Shown piece after piece: positions 34,661-39,379 of a DNA stretch of 44,622 nucleotides (position 1 is its first letter; every line of letters starts with the position of its first letter). The notes below the pieces were generated by a model that saw nothing but the letters and a program-made list of their open reading frames with translations, was not told where the DNA came from and did no database searches. Source of the stretch: Rhodoluna sp. GTDB taxonomy: Bacteria; Actinomycetota; Actinomycetes; Actinomycetales; Microbacteriaceae. The DNA lies in the NCBI GenBank assembly GCA_030831605.1, contig JAURKU010000004.1, positions 1 to 44,622 on the forward strand, given 5' to 3'. The position numbers and the translations under genes were made by a program.

Positions 34661-34855
34661 ATGCCCACCTACAGTTACCGTTGCGATAGTTGTGTCGAAG
34701 AGTTTGAGGTTACTCAAGCAATCACCGACAAAGCTCTCGAGAAGTGCCCGAAGTGCTCTGGCAAGGTGGTTAAGATTTTTGGCAAGGTCGGTATCAGTTT
34801 CAAGGGAACCGGCTTTTACCGCACCGACAACACTGCTCCGCCTAAGACCGATTAG
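34661..34855 (+). CDS. FmdB family zinc-ribbon protein
   Basis: MPTYSYRCDSCVEEFEVTQAITDKALEKCPKCSGKVVKIFGKVGISFKGTGFYRTD. Confidence 0.93.
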   Translation: MPTYSYRCDSCVEEFEVTQAITDKALEKCPKCSGKVVKIFGKVGISFKGTGFYRTDNTAPPKTD

Positions 34856-37800
34856 CCCCAGTGCGGGGGTTTATCATCCCGTAGCCGCTGATCATTAGAA
34901 GATGGTGTATCTCCCCAAGCCTGATCAGTATCTTCAAAGACACGTTTGACCGGTTGGGTATTTAGCATGGTTGGCGTGATTTCAACTCCAAGGCGAATAC
35001 CAATTCGTTCGGCTACCGATTGTGGGTCGCTAAAGACCTCAAAGGAATAGACCCGCTGGTAGCTCCAGCCCAAATGGCGAAGCAGAGCAGGACGTAATCT
35101 GATTCTTTCGGTCAACGCTAAATCAGTATTTGACCAGTCTGGTTCAACAACCAGTGCCTGATTACCGTATGAGGCAACTAGTGGCAATCTCCTGCCAAAT
35201 CCTTCAACAACACGAATTCCAAATCGCTTTAACCTTCTGGATAAATCAGCCAGCATCGGATCCGAATCAAAAGTATCGGTTTCCTCAGCATCGTTATAGA
35301 TAGGTTTTAACAGCACTTCTAGATACTTACTAGCACTACCGTCCACAAGCTCCGGCAAATCATAAGCGCTGAAACAGCTAACAATTGTCATGCGATATCT
35401 AGCACTTACCAGCATGTTGGCCAGCCACCGTTTGGCATCTGCCTCGTTTAGCAAACCAAAATGAGGCAGGACCTTACCGTGACTGGTTCGACCGAAACCG
35501 ATACTGAATATAATCCGATCGGCCAACCGGTGGTTCAGATCGGAAAGGCTGGCAATCTCAAATTTCTCTCGACCGTGCTTTTGGAAAAATTCCATTAGTT
35601 CCGGCTTAGCCTCCAGAGCTAATTGCAGGCGAAGGTGCAGATTTTCGACGTGCAATTTGCTAGCGCTAACTACCAGAAGTGACTGTTCGGGATGGTTTAG
35701 CACATGCTCGGTGATCAGTTCGACTACTTTTTGAACTTCGGCATCTGGTGATTCCGTGCTGGCCGAGCGGTTGGCGTTTGGACGAGTATCGCCATCGACT
35801 ATGACTAGTTCTAAAGCGGACTTTCCATCAAATTCGTTAGCCGTCGGTTCAAGCTCAAGCCGACCCTGGTAGAACTCGCGGTTTAATAGTTGCCCGAACA
35901 GCTGGCCTTTTAGGCGGTAGGAAGTTTTGAGCACCTCTTTGTCAAAGCTCTTCGCAACAGTTTCAAAGCAACTTTCCAATTGGCTAGTGCCGTAATCAAG
36001 CTGGTCAACCCACTCCACCGTAAAGCCATCAGGCTCGGCAATCATCGGATCACCGAAGGCAATGATCTGTTTGCCCCTGATGATTCCGGCGAGGTTATCG
36101 CTTAGGGTTGTGCCCGCGGCATCCATAACAATTACCAGGTCAAAATCCGCTTCCGCAGTTAGTTCCTCGGACACCTCGTAAGGCGATGCGGCGATGTGAT
36201 TGGCTGTGCTCCCCCAAATGCCTCTAGTGGCAGCCGAAATTATCGGCAGTGAATCAACCCGCTGGCGCAGCAGAAGTTTCAGAGCGTCAGTCTGGCTCTG
36301 GTTGGCTTCGGTGGCATCAATAAAGGAAATCTTGCTTCGATAAGAAATCTCCCTACGTGCCTCCAACTGCATACGCTGATCCGCCTTGACGAAGTTAGAT
36401 TCGAGCTCGGCAAGGAATTCAGGTGAATAGCTAGCAAATGCATTGTCCCCGCTCAGAAGATACTCCAAGGCGGAAAGCCACCAGCACTGGTCAAACTCGG
36501 CAACCAGGTCCTCATTTTTGACTGCATTCGCTGCCAGCGAGCGAAGCAGGGCATCAAGGCCAGCTTCGCTGATTCTGGCGCGCAGATTGTTTTTAGCCAG
36601 CAGGTTATCAAGCGGTTTGGTCTGGGTTGCCAGGTTCTTTAGAGTTTGGCTGAGTAGCGCTATTTCTAGCTCAATCAGATTAGGTCTATCCGGATCAGGG
36701 TCGAGATGAGAATCGAGTTTTATCAAATCTGCAACAAGTGATTGGTAAATCACCTGAGCGTCATCGATACCCATCGGCACGGTCGGTCTAATTGGTTCAG
36801 TGCATAGCGTTTGCCATCTGGCTGCTTGCTCTTCAATTTGAATCAGCGAGGTGTGTAGATCTGGGACGCTAACACCAGCCCGAACATACTCTTTGACATG
36901 TTTACTCAAAGCCCTTCTGGTCTTGCCAGACATCGAGCTTTTCTCTTTACGCGGGCTAGTCGCCTGAATCAAATCAGTTAGCGGCCGATCAAATACCTCT
37001 GGTTTGAACCGATCCAAGGTGTTGCGAATGTTGATGAGTAACCGCAGATATTCCCCCCACTGCGCAACGTTGTGTGCTTTCGGGAAATGGACCTGGTCGG
37101 AAATTTCATCTAGCCTGGAACCGAAATTCGGTAGCACATCCTCGGCTAGCCGTTCGGCTAGAGCTACCGCTCTTGGCGCTTCCGCAGGGTCATCAAATTT
37201 GGCATTGAACCAGGGACTAATTTTGTTTTGCTCTTCGAACTCTCCTAGTTCGATCGCCTCCTGCAGTAGGGCTATTGCTTGGCTTCGATTTCTAGTTTCA
37301 AATAGCGCTGGCCCGATAATTCGGGCAGTCGTTTTAGGTGGTTTCGGTAATGCGCTGAGCACAGCTAGCTTCTCTAGAGCTTGACTAATGCTGATTCCTA
37401 ATACGGGATGTTCTAGATGCAAACTCTCGTAGTACTTCTCTAATTCGGCAATTGCCCGGTCACGCGCTGACCTCGCTGCAGCCATATCTGCTTGTTCTGA
37501 TTTTTCGAACCTGGAAATTGCCGAAACAAGATCCAGCCAGCAAGAGTGCGCTCTAACCAGTAATCCGTTTAATCCAAACTGTGAAAGCCGGTCAGCTAAT
37601 TCATTTAGTGTCTGCCGACGCGGGGCTAGAACCAGAGCCCTCTTCCCTTGAGAGCTAAGTGCACCGAGAATATTCGCAACTGTCTGGGTATAACCGGTAC
37701 CGGGCAGAGTCTCAACGGCAAAGTTATCGCCGTTTAGCGCTCTGCTGATAATTCTGCTCTGCTCCTGATCAGCATCGCCTGCCAACAGCGGAGCTAGCTT

Positions 37801-38490
37801 CTGCTCGTTGATGATTTCGCCGTTTATCTCAAGCAGCTTTTTTGCTAAATCATTTGGGCCACTTATTTCATTGAGCATCAAAGTCGGTGCAATAGTGGCG
37901 TTAGTAACGACCAGGGTTCGTTGTATTTCAAGTTCTGGAACAGCTTTGGTTGATTCGGAAACAAAACTCAATAGCGTAATCGGAGCTAAGTCACTCGAAT
38001 CAACATATAGCTTCAGTAGCCGGGTCACATCGAGGTTGATGTTGAACTCTCGTTTTAGAGTCAGAATCAATGCGGGGTTTACCATCGGGGATCCAGTTAG
38101 CACCAATTCAAAATCGGCACCCTTGCGAATGAGCTCGGCTTGCCACATCACTATCGGCATTCGGAGATCTAATTTCAGCGGGCTGAAATCCACTGCACCG
38201 GCAAGTAAGAAGAGGCTGTCGATTCCAAAGTTAGTGGCCAGCCGCTCACTTTTTAGCTTTATCCTTCTGGCCTCAGTAAGTGCCTTGGAATAAGCAATTG
38301 GGTCGCGGACTAGATTTACCAACAAGCCGCGGTGACTCTTAGTGAACAGGGAGAGGCCAACTGGATGGGCTCGCTCTAAATTGACTAGGCCGGAAACTTC
38401 TGTATCCAAATTGGTCAGCGGGTTAGGACCACCGATGGCTCGAACCTGTTCCAGCCAAATTTCAAAGCCCTGCTTGGATTTATCAGTCAT
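34852..38490 (-). CDS. DUF4011-type SF1 helicase-like protein, apparently with degenerate ATPase motifs
   Basis: 1212-aa intact ORF. 'VETLPGTGYTQTVANILGALSSQGKRALVLAPRRQTLNELADRL', 'FDLVIVMDAAGTTLSDNLAGIIRGKQIIAFGDPM', 'FSIGFGRTSHGKVLPHFGLLNEADAKRWLANMLVSARYRMTIVS' and C-terminal 'IRLRPALLRHLGWSYQRVYSFEVFSDP' align with that family's layout. Confidence 0.72.
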   Translation of the reverse strand: MTDKSKQGFEIWLEQVRAIGGPNPLTNLDTEVSGLVNLERAHPVGLSLFTKSHRGLLVNLVRDPIAYSKALTEARRIKLKSERLATNFGIDSLFLLAGAVDFSPLKLDLRMPIVMWQAELIRKGADFELVLTGSPMVNPALILTLKREFNINLDVTRLLKLYVDSSDLAPITLLSFVSESTKAVPELEIQRTLVVTNATIAPTLMLNEISGPNDLAKKLLEINGEIINEQKLAPLLAGDADQEQSRIISRALNGDNFAVETLPGTGYTQTVANILGALSSQGKRALVLAPRRQTLNELADRLSQFGLNGLLVRAHSCWLDLVSAISRFEKSEQADMAAARSARDRAIAELEKYYESLHLEHPVLGISISQALEKLAVLSALPKPPKTTARIIGPALFETRNRSQAIALLQEAIELGEFEEQNKISPWFNAKFDDPAEAPRAVALAERLAEDVLPNFGSRLDEISDQVHFPKAHNVAQWGEYLRLLINIRNTLDRFKPEVFDRPLTDLIQATSPRKEKSSMSGKTRRALSKHVKEYVRAGVSVPDLHTSLIQIEEQAARWQTLCTEPIRPTVPMGIDDAQVIYQSLVADLIKLDSHLDPDPDRPNLIELEIALLSQTLKNLATQTKPLDNLLAKNNLRARISEAGLDALLRSLAANAVKNEDLVAEFDQCWWLSALEYLLSGDNAFASYSPEFLAELESNFVKADQRMQLEARREISYRSKISFIDATEANQSQTDALKLLLRQRVDSLPIISAATRGIWGSTANHIAASPYEVSEELTAEADFDLVIVMDAAGTTLSDNLAGIIRGKQIIAFGDPMIAEPDGFTVEWVDQLDYGTSQLESCFETVAKSFDKEVLKTSYRLKGQLFGQLLNREFYQGRLELEPTANEFDGKSALELVIVDGDTRPNANRSASTESPDAEVQKVVELITEHVLNHPEQSLLVVSASKLHVENLHLRLQLALEAKPELMEFFQKHGREKFEIASLSDLNHRLADRIIFSIGFGRTSHGKVLPHFGLLNEADAKRWLANMLVSARYRMTIVSCFSAYDLPELVDGSASKYLEVLLKPIYNDAEETDTFDSDPMLADLSRRLKRFGIRVVEGFGRRLPLVASYGNQALVVEPDWSNTDLALTERIRLRPALLRHLGWSYQRVYSFEVFSDPQSVAERIGIRLGVEITPTMLNTQPVKRVFEDTDQAWGDTPSSNDQRLRDDKPPHWG

Positions 38491-38653: not shown

Positions 38654-39157
38654 TTAGGCAGCGTTGGATAAACGCAGATACTCATCCCATTCAGGTTCGA
38701 CGCGATCGGCTCCCCTGATCAACCAGGCTCCACCGGAAGGCATTTTTGGTGTGAAAGAGATTTGCCAGCCGAGTTCACTTAGGCTCTTATCGCCTTTGAT
38801 GTTGTTACAGCGAAGACAACATGCCACAAGGTTTTCCCAGCTGTCACTTCCACCGCGTGATTTCGGTTGCACGTGATCAACGGTATTAGCCGCTCGCTTG
38901 CAATAAGCACAGCGATAACCATCTCTGCGCAAAATTCCTCTTCGAGAAAGTGGAATGTTTCTAGAGCCTGGCACTCGAACATATCGACTTAGCAGAATCA
39001 CCGAAGGTAATTCGTATTCACCGGTTGCCGAGTGAACTTTTCTATCGGCTGAGCCTTCTAGCACAGTGGCCTTTTGATTTAGTACCAAAACGATTGCTCG
39101 CTTGAACGAGACCACAGCTAACGGCTCATAGCCGGCATTTAGAACCAAAGTACGCAA
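38654..39157 (-). CDS. HNH endonuclease family protein
   Basis: 'CAYCKRAANTVDHVQPKSRGGSDSWENLVACCLRCNNIKGDKSLSELGW' (HNH with CxxC pairs). TTG start with AAAGGAT upstream. Confidence 0.92.
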   Translation of the reverse strand: MRTLVLNAGYEPLAVVSFKRAIVLVLNQKATVLEGSADRKVHSATGEYELPSVILLSRYVRVPGSRNIPLSRRGILRRDGYRCAYCKRAANTVDHVQPKSRGGSDSWENLVACCLRCNNIKGDKSLSELGWQISFTPKMPSGGAWLIRGADRVEPEWDEYLRLSNAA

Positions 39158-39176
39158 TTGCTATCCTTTCGAAATC

Positions 39177-39195
39177 ACCTGCACGGATTGCAGGT
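39177..39195. promoter_or_regulatory. Perfect 7-bp dyad in HNH gene leader
   Basis: ACCTGCA-CGGAT-TGCAGGT just upstream of the HNH gene RBS. Confidence 0.6.
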
Positions 39196-39223
39196 TTTCG
39201 TTAAGTTAGCTATCTGCACCAAC

Positions 39224-39254
39224 AAAAAACGCGCCACCAACTAGTGGTGACGCG
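39224..39254 (-). terminator. Intrinsic terminator upstream of HNH gene; overlaps micro-ORF stop codon
   Basis: Minus strand CGCGTCACCA-CTAGT-TGGTGGCGCG-TTTTTTG: about 10-bp stem (one G-T) followed by a T run. Confidence 0.88.
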
Positions 39255-39333
39255 CAGCGGCCAGTGCCTCACAGGGACAGGTTATATGAAGGTGCCAGAA
39301 CTTGTGCTTGGCGGGCACATGTCTAACTTTCAT
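39241..39333 (-). CDS. Candidate 30-aa micro-ORF (His/Cys-rich leader-like peptide)
   Basis: ATG...TAG reading MKVRHVPAKHKFWHLHITCPCEALAAARHH*, preceded by AGGAAGAGATCA (SD-like). Not in the supplied ORF list because of its size. Confidence 0.5.
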   Translation of the reverse strand: MKVRHVPAKHKFWHLHITCPCEALAAARHH

Positions 39334-39379
39334 TGATCTCTTCCTGTTCGGGCAGATAAATAACTTGGATAAAGAGTAA

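Follow-up and report, generated by a model that had tools for sequence, protein, structure and literature searches.

The pyrBI attenuator of Escherichia coli has a leader ORF that ends at or within the terminator, and a ribosome near the stop codon hides the 5' arm of the terminator stem. In E. coli, a ribosome almost fully represses a terminator located a few nt past the stop codon, and termination is full beyond ~27–30 nt from the stop codon and is restored by uncoupling (PMC4824070). Furthermore, if a terminator lies in the first 100 bp of a coding region, it can act although the region is translated, except where the polymerase is held back by pausing (PMC4824070). Short leader ORFs are also found upstream of genes with the actinobacterial trp, cys and leu leader-peptide attenuators, which belong to the same phylum as the locus discussed here (PMC1262725). 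Such attenuators control genes of amino-acid metabolism by means of regulatory codons and antiterminators, and a nuclease gene is not mentioned among them in that study (PMC1262725).

A second group of related systems is formed by the OMEGA nucleases IscB and IsrB. The PLMP domain of IsrB contacts the terminal hairpins of the omega-RNA, one of which holds the Shine–Dalgarno sequence of its own gene, and regulation of expression has been suggested for this contact (PMC9581776). The PLMP domain has also been reported as similar to the N-domain of IF3 (PMC9581776). For IscB, the contacts between the PLMP domain and the hairpins are mainly sequence-independent (PMC9640706). IshB-like PLMP-HNH proteins have been named as possible donors of the HNH domain of IscB (PMC12477157). 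In the literature searched, no report was found of an RNA associated with IshB-like proteins or of an HNH leader or attenuator.

The locus described here belongs to Rhodoluna, which are freshwater bacteria, and was found in a window of 44,622 nt, i.e. the whole stretch of DNA that was analysed. As read in the sequence, it is a minus-strand leader that follows an NlpC/P60 gene and precedes the gene of an HNH nuclease. The leader would work like pyrBI attenuation and like the contact of IsrB with its Shine–Dalgarno hairpin, yet it belongs to neither. Starting from the established anatomy and conservation of the leader, the coding selection, the covariation, the PLMP fold and the uniqueness of one hairpin, we favour, at a probability of roughly 0.55, a reading in which two controls act on one PLMP-HNH transcript, namely attenuation and the binding of a protein to hairpins.

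Stop codon and terminator

The leader contains a micro-ORF of 30 codons plus a TAG stop codon (39241–39333, minus strand, as are all features below; translation MKVRHVPAKHKFWHLHITCPCEALAAARHH), the ATG of which at 39333 is preceded by an SD-like AGGAAGAG. The Shine–Dalgarno region was read as AGGAAGAGATCA (39334–39345), with AAGGAG at the equal place in congeners. The 3' end of the micro-ORF overlaps an intrinsic terminator (39224–39255), with the hairpin CGCGTCACCA(ctagt)TGGTGGCGCG followed by a U-tract and with the TAG (39241–39243) situated in the loop. This hairpin of 11 pairs ranked first in the terminator scan and was also recovered by folding and by RNAalifold, and folding of the leader strand gave a z of -4.9 against shuffles. 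A preliminary description of the window had reported the SD-like motif, the 30-codon frame, the stop codon in the loop and the U-tract, and both coordinates and sequence were confirmed.

The position of the stop codon was counted in 94 distinct Microbacteriaceae leaders in which an SD-led ORF is accompanied by a terminator. It lies 2–9 nt ahead of the stem core in 61 leaders and inside the terminator loop in 17, and the overlap with the terminator that the preliminary description had pointed out thus extends, as a stop codon at or in the terminator, to 78 of the 94 leaders. The frame runs beyond the terminator in 15 leaders, which count against the attenuator model, whereas an earlier stop codon occurs in a single leader and a stop codon within an arm in none. 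The lack of stop codons in the arms is partly trivial, as GC-rich arms hold few of them, but the lack of early stop codons is not. In Agromyces leaders (L111, L121, L126, L134) and in those of Aquiluna and relatives (L088–L095), the micro-ORF crosses the terminator and hairpin 2 (see below) and, in a frame other than that of HNH, approaches or overlaps the HNH start codon, an arrangement that suggests translational coupling instead of attenuation in these leaders. In other families of the order (L182–L196), a His-rich frame (e.g. HHHVHHHH) continues in phase and without a stop codon into the HNH gene, and a GC-rich hairpin is found 20–30 nt upstream of the HNH start; this frame either extends the N-terminus of the protein or is a leader that has become fused to it.

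The TTG start codon of the HNH gene (39157) is located 72 nt past the terminator stem. In roughly a dozen other leaders (L050, L070, L073, L078–L083, L085, L109, L140 and L157), no more than 18–24 nt separate the end of the stem from the HNH start, which leaves no space for a second promoter and implies that the HNH gene is transcribed through the terminator. In the window, a -10-like TAACTT is present between the terminator and hairpin 2, but it is not conserved among congeners, and no conserved -10 was found in this interval in the congener comparison.

Taken together, the conserved stop codon at the terminator, the selection on the peptide (see below) and the lack of space for a promoter make an attenuator of the pyrBI type very probable. 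A ribosome that has reached the stop codon while the polymerase is at the U-tract would cover the 5' arm, and transcription would then enter the nuclease gene; if the micro-ORF were not translated in time, the terminator would fold. Judged by the position of the stop codon, read-through of the terminator upon translation of the micro-ORF is likely. The conserved layout, the selected peptide and the missing promoter space thus support the pyrBI-type reading in the preliminary description, which is probably of the right kind. It was incomplete, however, as it did not include hairpins 1 and 2, the conservation across the class or the PLMP domain that the nuclease carries. Unlike pyrBI, the leader has no U-runs for pyrimidine-sensitive pausing (the longest T run in the micro-ORF of the window is 2), the controlled gene encodes a nuclease, the peptide is under selection and additional protein-type hairpins are present. 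The short micro-ORF without a U-run is the main caveat for an attenuator: with a length of 16–40 codons across leaders, and with early terminators being able to work despite translation, read-through needs a pause of the polymerase.

Hairpins at the two translation starts

RNAalifold on 16 leaders found hairpin 1, the terminator and hairpin 2 as the only hairpins. Hairpin 1 (39303–39319, TGTGC-ccgccaa-GCACA) is located within the micro-ORF and has a 7-nt loop of the form NNNCCRN. In the leader survey it was present in 77 of the 94 leaders with SD-led ORFs, compared to 6% of shuffled leaders, with varying stems and with loops that include CTGCCAA. Hairpin 2 (39170–39200, CGAAAACCTGC-aatccgt-GCAGGTgaTTTCG) abuts the Shine–Dalgarno sequence of the HNH gene, read as GAAAGGA (39164–39170). 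In an alignment of 33 sequences, 90.6% of the cells of hairpin 2 are paired and 10 of its 11 pairs show double-sided changes, which was matched by none of 500 shuffles. Its 7-nt loop AAKCCRU is nearly fixed in this alignment, position 3 being G or U only, followed by CC and a purine, and the CCR loop is thus common to both hairpins. The covariance model of hairpin 2 has a single match in its own genome, at the HNH gene, and among 100 genomes of the family the best 30 matches are all located directly upstream of HNH. In an order-wide search, the matches outside the family that were inspected (L229 and L236, E 2e-4 to 4e-3) were weak and were rejected, as they sit at other places, within coding sequence or next to a gene for tRNA-Ser (L234 has nearly the same sequence as L229). 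A pseudoknot between the CC of the hairpin 2 loop and the GG of the Shine–Dalgarno sequence was likewise discarded, as no matching covariation was visible by eye. Hairpins 1 and 2 are absent together in clades with short leaders, which amounts to just 2–4 independent loss events. In the window, both loops (39177–39195 and 39303–39319) resemble the anticodon loop of tRNA-Gly, with GCC or UCC followed by a purine.

The gene behind hairpin 2 (38654–39157) encodes a protein of 167 aa, for which HNH is the sole Pfam domain. Its N-terminal domain was modelled by AlphaFold2 as a beta-beta-alpha-beta-beta fold. A comparison of sequences alone by hhalign of the N-terminus with IscB gave a similarity too weak to rely on, and the folds were compared instead. 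In a Foldseek search of the N-terminal domain against the PDB, the best nine matches were all IscB or IsrB (TMq values of 0.53–0.62), followed by IF3 N-domains, with probabilities of 0.82–1.00 and E-values of 0.08–0.8 that are weak due to the small size of the domain. By this modelled fold, the N-terminal domain is predicted to be a PLMP domain. The nuclease fits IshB, which we take to be a protein of about 170–180 aa that consists of PLMP and HNH without RuvC, and it is thus like the IshB-like PLMP-HNH proteins in domain content and size. With the OMEGA nucleases it shares the PLMP fold and a hairpin right at the Shine–Dalgarno sequence, and with IscB also the HNH domain. Unlike these nucleases, it lacks RuvC and the bridge helix, and there is no guide or omega-RNA of 200–400 nt, as the leader forms three small hairpins in less than 250 nt. 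The window also contains, further downstream than the HNH gene, a gene for a 1212-aa protein (34852–38490, minus strand) with a weak match to the helicase domain AAA_11 (E 2.4e-5, below the cut-off).

Hairpins with a CCR loop thus stand at both translation starts, with hairpin 1 at that of the micro-ORF, just within the frame, and hairpin 2 at the HNH Shine–Dalgarno sequence, and the PLMP domain of the nuclease would be their most likely binder. The nuclease bound to hairpin 2 would block its own translation, while on hairpin 1 it would slow translation of the micro-ORF and thereby favour termination. As the PLMP domain of IsrB contacts a hairpin at its own Shine–Dalgarno sequence, such autoregulation is the model that we favour for the second control, although by analogy and tentatively. 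The strong covariation of hairpin 2, its link to this one gene, and the CCR loop and joint losses that it has in common with hairpin 1 also speak for binding. Against binding by the nuclease count the conservation of the loop, which differs from the mainly sequence-independent contacts of IscB, the weak similarity to PLMP by sequence, and the leaders that lack the hairpins but retain the same nuclease.

A simpler reading holds that the leader is an attenuator only. In it, the micro-ORF would sense the general speed of translation or how well the cell is supplied with amino acids such as His, Gln or Cys; hairpin 1 would make the polymerase pause, while an unrelated role in stability or initiation would fall to hairpin 2. 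The stop-terminator geometry, which is like that of pyrBI, is in agreement with this, and a pause hairpin close to the start would suit leaders of the trp type. In Rhodoluna, His and Gln make up 9.4% and 14.3% of the residues in frame, compared to 1–5% in the other frames. However, this enrichment is not frame-specific outside the genus, and that of Cys is not frame-specific even in Rhodoluna. Sensing of the His supply, as put forward in the preliminary description, thus has the enrichment within the genus in its favour, while sensing of the Cys supply was rejected. Moreover, RNAalifold detected no competing antiterminator among the 16 leaders, which argues against classical amino-acid attenuation and sets the leader apart from the trp, cys and leu systems. 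Finally, the loops of hairpins 1 and 2 are conserved besides their stems, for which a pause hairpin has no need. Overall, an attenuator without a second control appears rather unlikely.

Alternatively, hairpins 1 and 2 could be read by another factor, for instance a tRNA-recognising protein or an RNase. The 7-nt loops do have the appearance of a tRNA-Gly anticodon loop (xxGCCAA and xxUCCAA), both in hairpin 2, with G or U at position 3 before CC and a purine, and in hairpin 1, with loops such as CTGCCAA. Yet hairpin 2 has no U33 and is tied to a single gene, which is better suited to self-regulation than to a housekeeping factor, and such a reader is considered quite improbable compared to the PLMP domain of the nuclease itself.

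Selection on the micro-ORF peptide

For the comparison of the peptide, regions preceding the HNH gene were gathered in Rhodoluna and in named Microbacteriaceae, and other families were sampled as well. The peptide is seen throughout Rhodoluna, in congeners always immediately upstream of the same HNH gene, and the congeners share its frame, its start codon and its core residues (VPAKHxxQxxH..CPCQ). In the closest clade, which provided 15 distinct sequences, codons 2–24 have a pN/pS of 0.40 and codons 11–24, which hairpin 1 does not cover, one of 0.31. A pN/pS as low as that of the micro-ORF frame was reached in none of 1000 column shuffles, and both other frames of the region gave values of ~1. 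These substitution patterns indicate that the peptide is under purifying selection; the recurrence of frame and Shine–Dalgarno sequence together with a synonymous bias bears out the translated frame of the preliminary description. Between clades the peptide diverges fast, and it is only 16–19 aa long where hairpin 1 is absent. Matches to the peptide in other families of the order (L012–L024) were rejected as chance matches in unrelated frames. The terminal His-His, to which the preliminary description had drawn attention, does not belong to the conserved part: in the nearest relative (L026/L055, HNH 98% identical) the frame ends after 25 codons, upstream of the stem, and the EALAAARHH with its terminal HH is therefore a lineage-specific extension in the window that only translates the 5' arm, and no conserved metal motif.

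The purifying selection and the His- and Cys-rich composition would also be expected of a working microprotein that binds metal or acts as a partner of the nuclease. In this reading, the microprotein gene would have a terminator of its own and the HNH gene would be transcribed separately. However, the fast-changing peptide, so short in places, is always linked to the HNH gene and to the terminator, and separate transcription is contradicted by the clades that have no room for a second promoter and by the missing conserved -10 before hairpin 2. The metal-binding microprotein of the preliminary description is further weakened by its composition, with a Cys enrichment that is not specific to the frame and a His/Gln enrichment that is so in Rhodoluna only, and a role of this kind is judged improbable. 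That the frame is a chance ORF and that the terminator simply ends the transcript of the NlpC/P60 gene, as the preliminary description had allowed and as the end of this same-strand gene ~110 nt upstream might suggest, is refuted by the pN/pS test, the conservation of frame, Shine–Dalgarno sequence, start and stop position, and the terminators that adjoin the HNH start in several clades. The two-control reading, which we prefer, leaves the selection on the peptide sequence itself unaccounted for.

A hairpin on PLMP-HNH genes across the class

Almost every Actinomycetes genome that was sampled has the PLMP-HNH gene, mostly as a single copy and not in a transposon-like manner. The region upstream of the gene was surveyed in 60 genomes from orders other than Actinomycetales, comprising 22 families. 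A hairpin with covarying stems was found upstream of the Shine–Dalgarno sequence at 19 loci in 7 of the 22 families, compared to a rate of 0.0016 per locus in shuffled sequence. Its loop is GAGCCAC or GTGCCAT (general 7-nt consensus RAKCCRY), and its carriers include Streptomyces-like genomes of 7–9 Mb as well as acI-like genomes of 1.2–2.2 Mb. In an alignment of 24 sequences, 97.9% of the cells are paired and the covariation score was reached by no shuffle. The class model of 28 positions gives E-values of just 0.02–0.4, but of the 18 genomes with a match, 17 have their best one at this gene, the exception being G381 with its best match elsewhere. Neither the leader nor the class-wide hairpins matched Rfam at gathering or relaxed thresholds. 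This class-wide cis-RNA hairpin on PLMP-HNH nuclease genes is the larger finding, beyond the leader in Microbacteriaceae.

On an evolutionary scale, a PLMP-HNH (IshB-like) protein and its own leader hairpin might form a ribonucleoprotein that is a minimal living counterpart of the terminal hairpin of omega-RNA, from which the guide RNAs of IscB and Cas9 could have arisen, with the hairpin having been duplicated into a translated attenuator in Microbacteriaceae; as a whole, this scenario is speculative and doubtful. The conserved cis-RNA at the Shine–Dalgarno sequence is nevertheless a first concrete handle on a small nuclease of nearly all sampled Actinomycetes. With it, one can test directly if hairpins of this kind are bound by PLMP domains beyond transposon systems, a question that bears on the origin of RNA binding in the IscB–Cas9 lineage. 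The leader in Microbacteriaceae, in turn, would be a family-wide translation-coupled attenuator of a nuclease instead of a biosynthetic gene.

Two further observations were made in the surveyed sequences. Full-length IscB genes in class-level genomes (L237–L243) have a hairpin directly upstream of the Shine–Dalgarno sequence, with different loops. In addition, one locus that bears the HNH gene also carries a c-di-AMP riboswitch (L180:212–382, Rfam RF00379).
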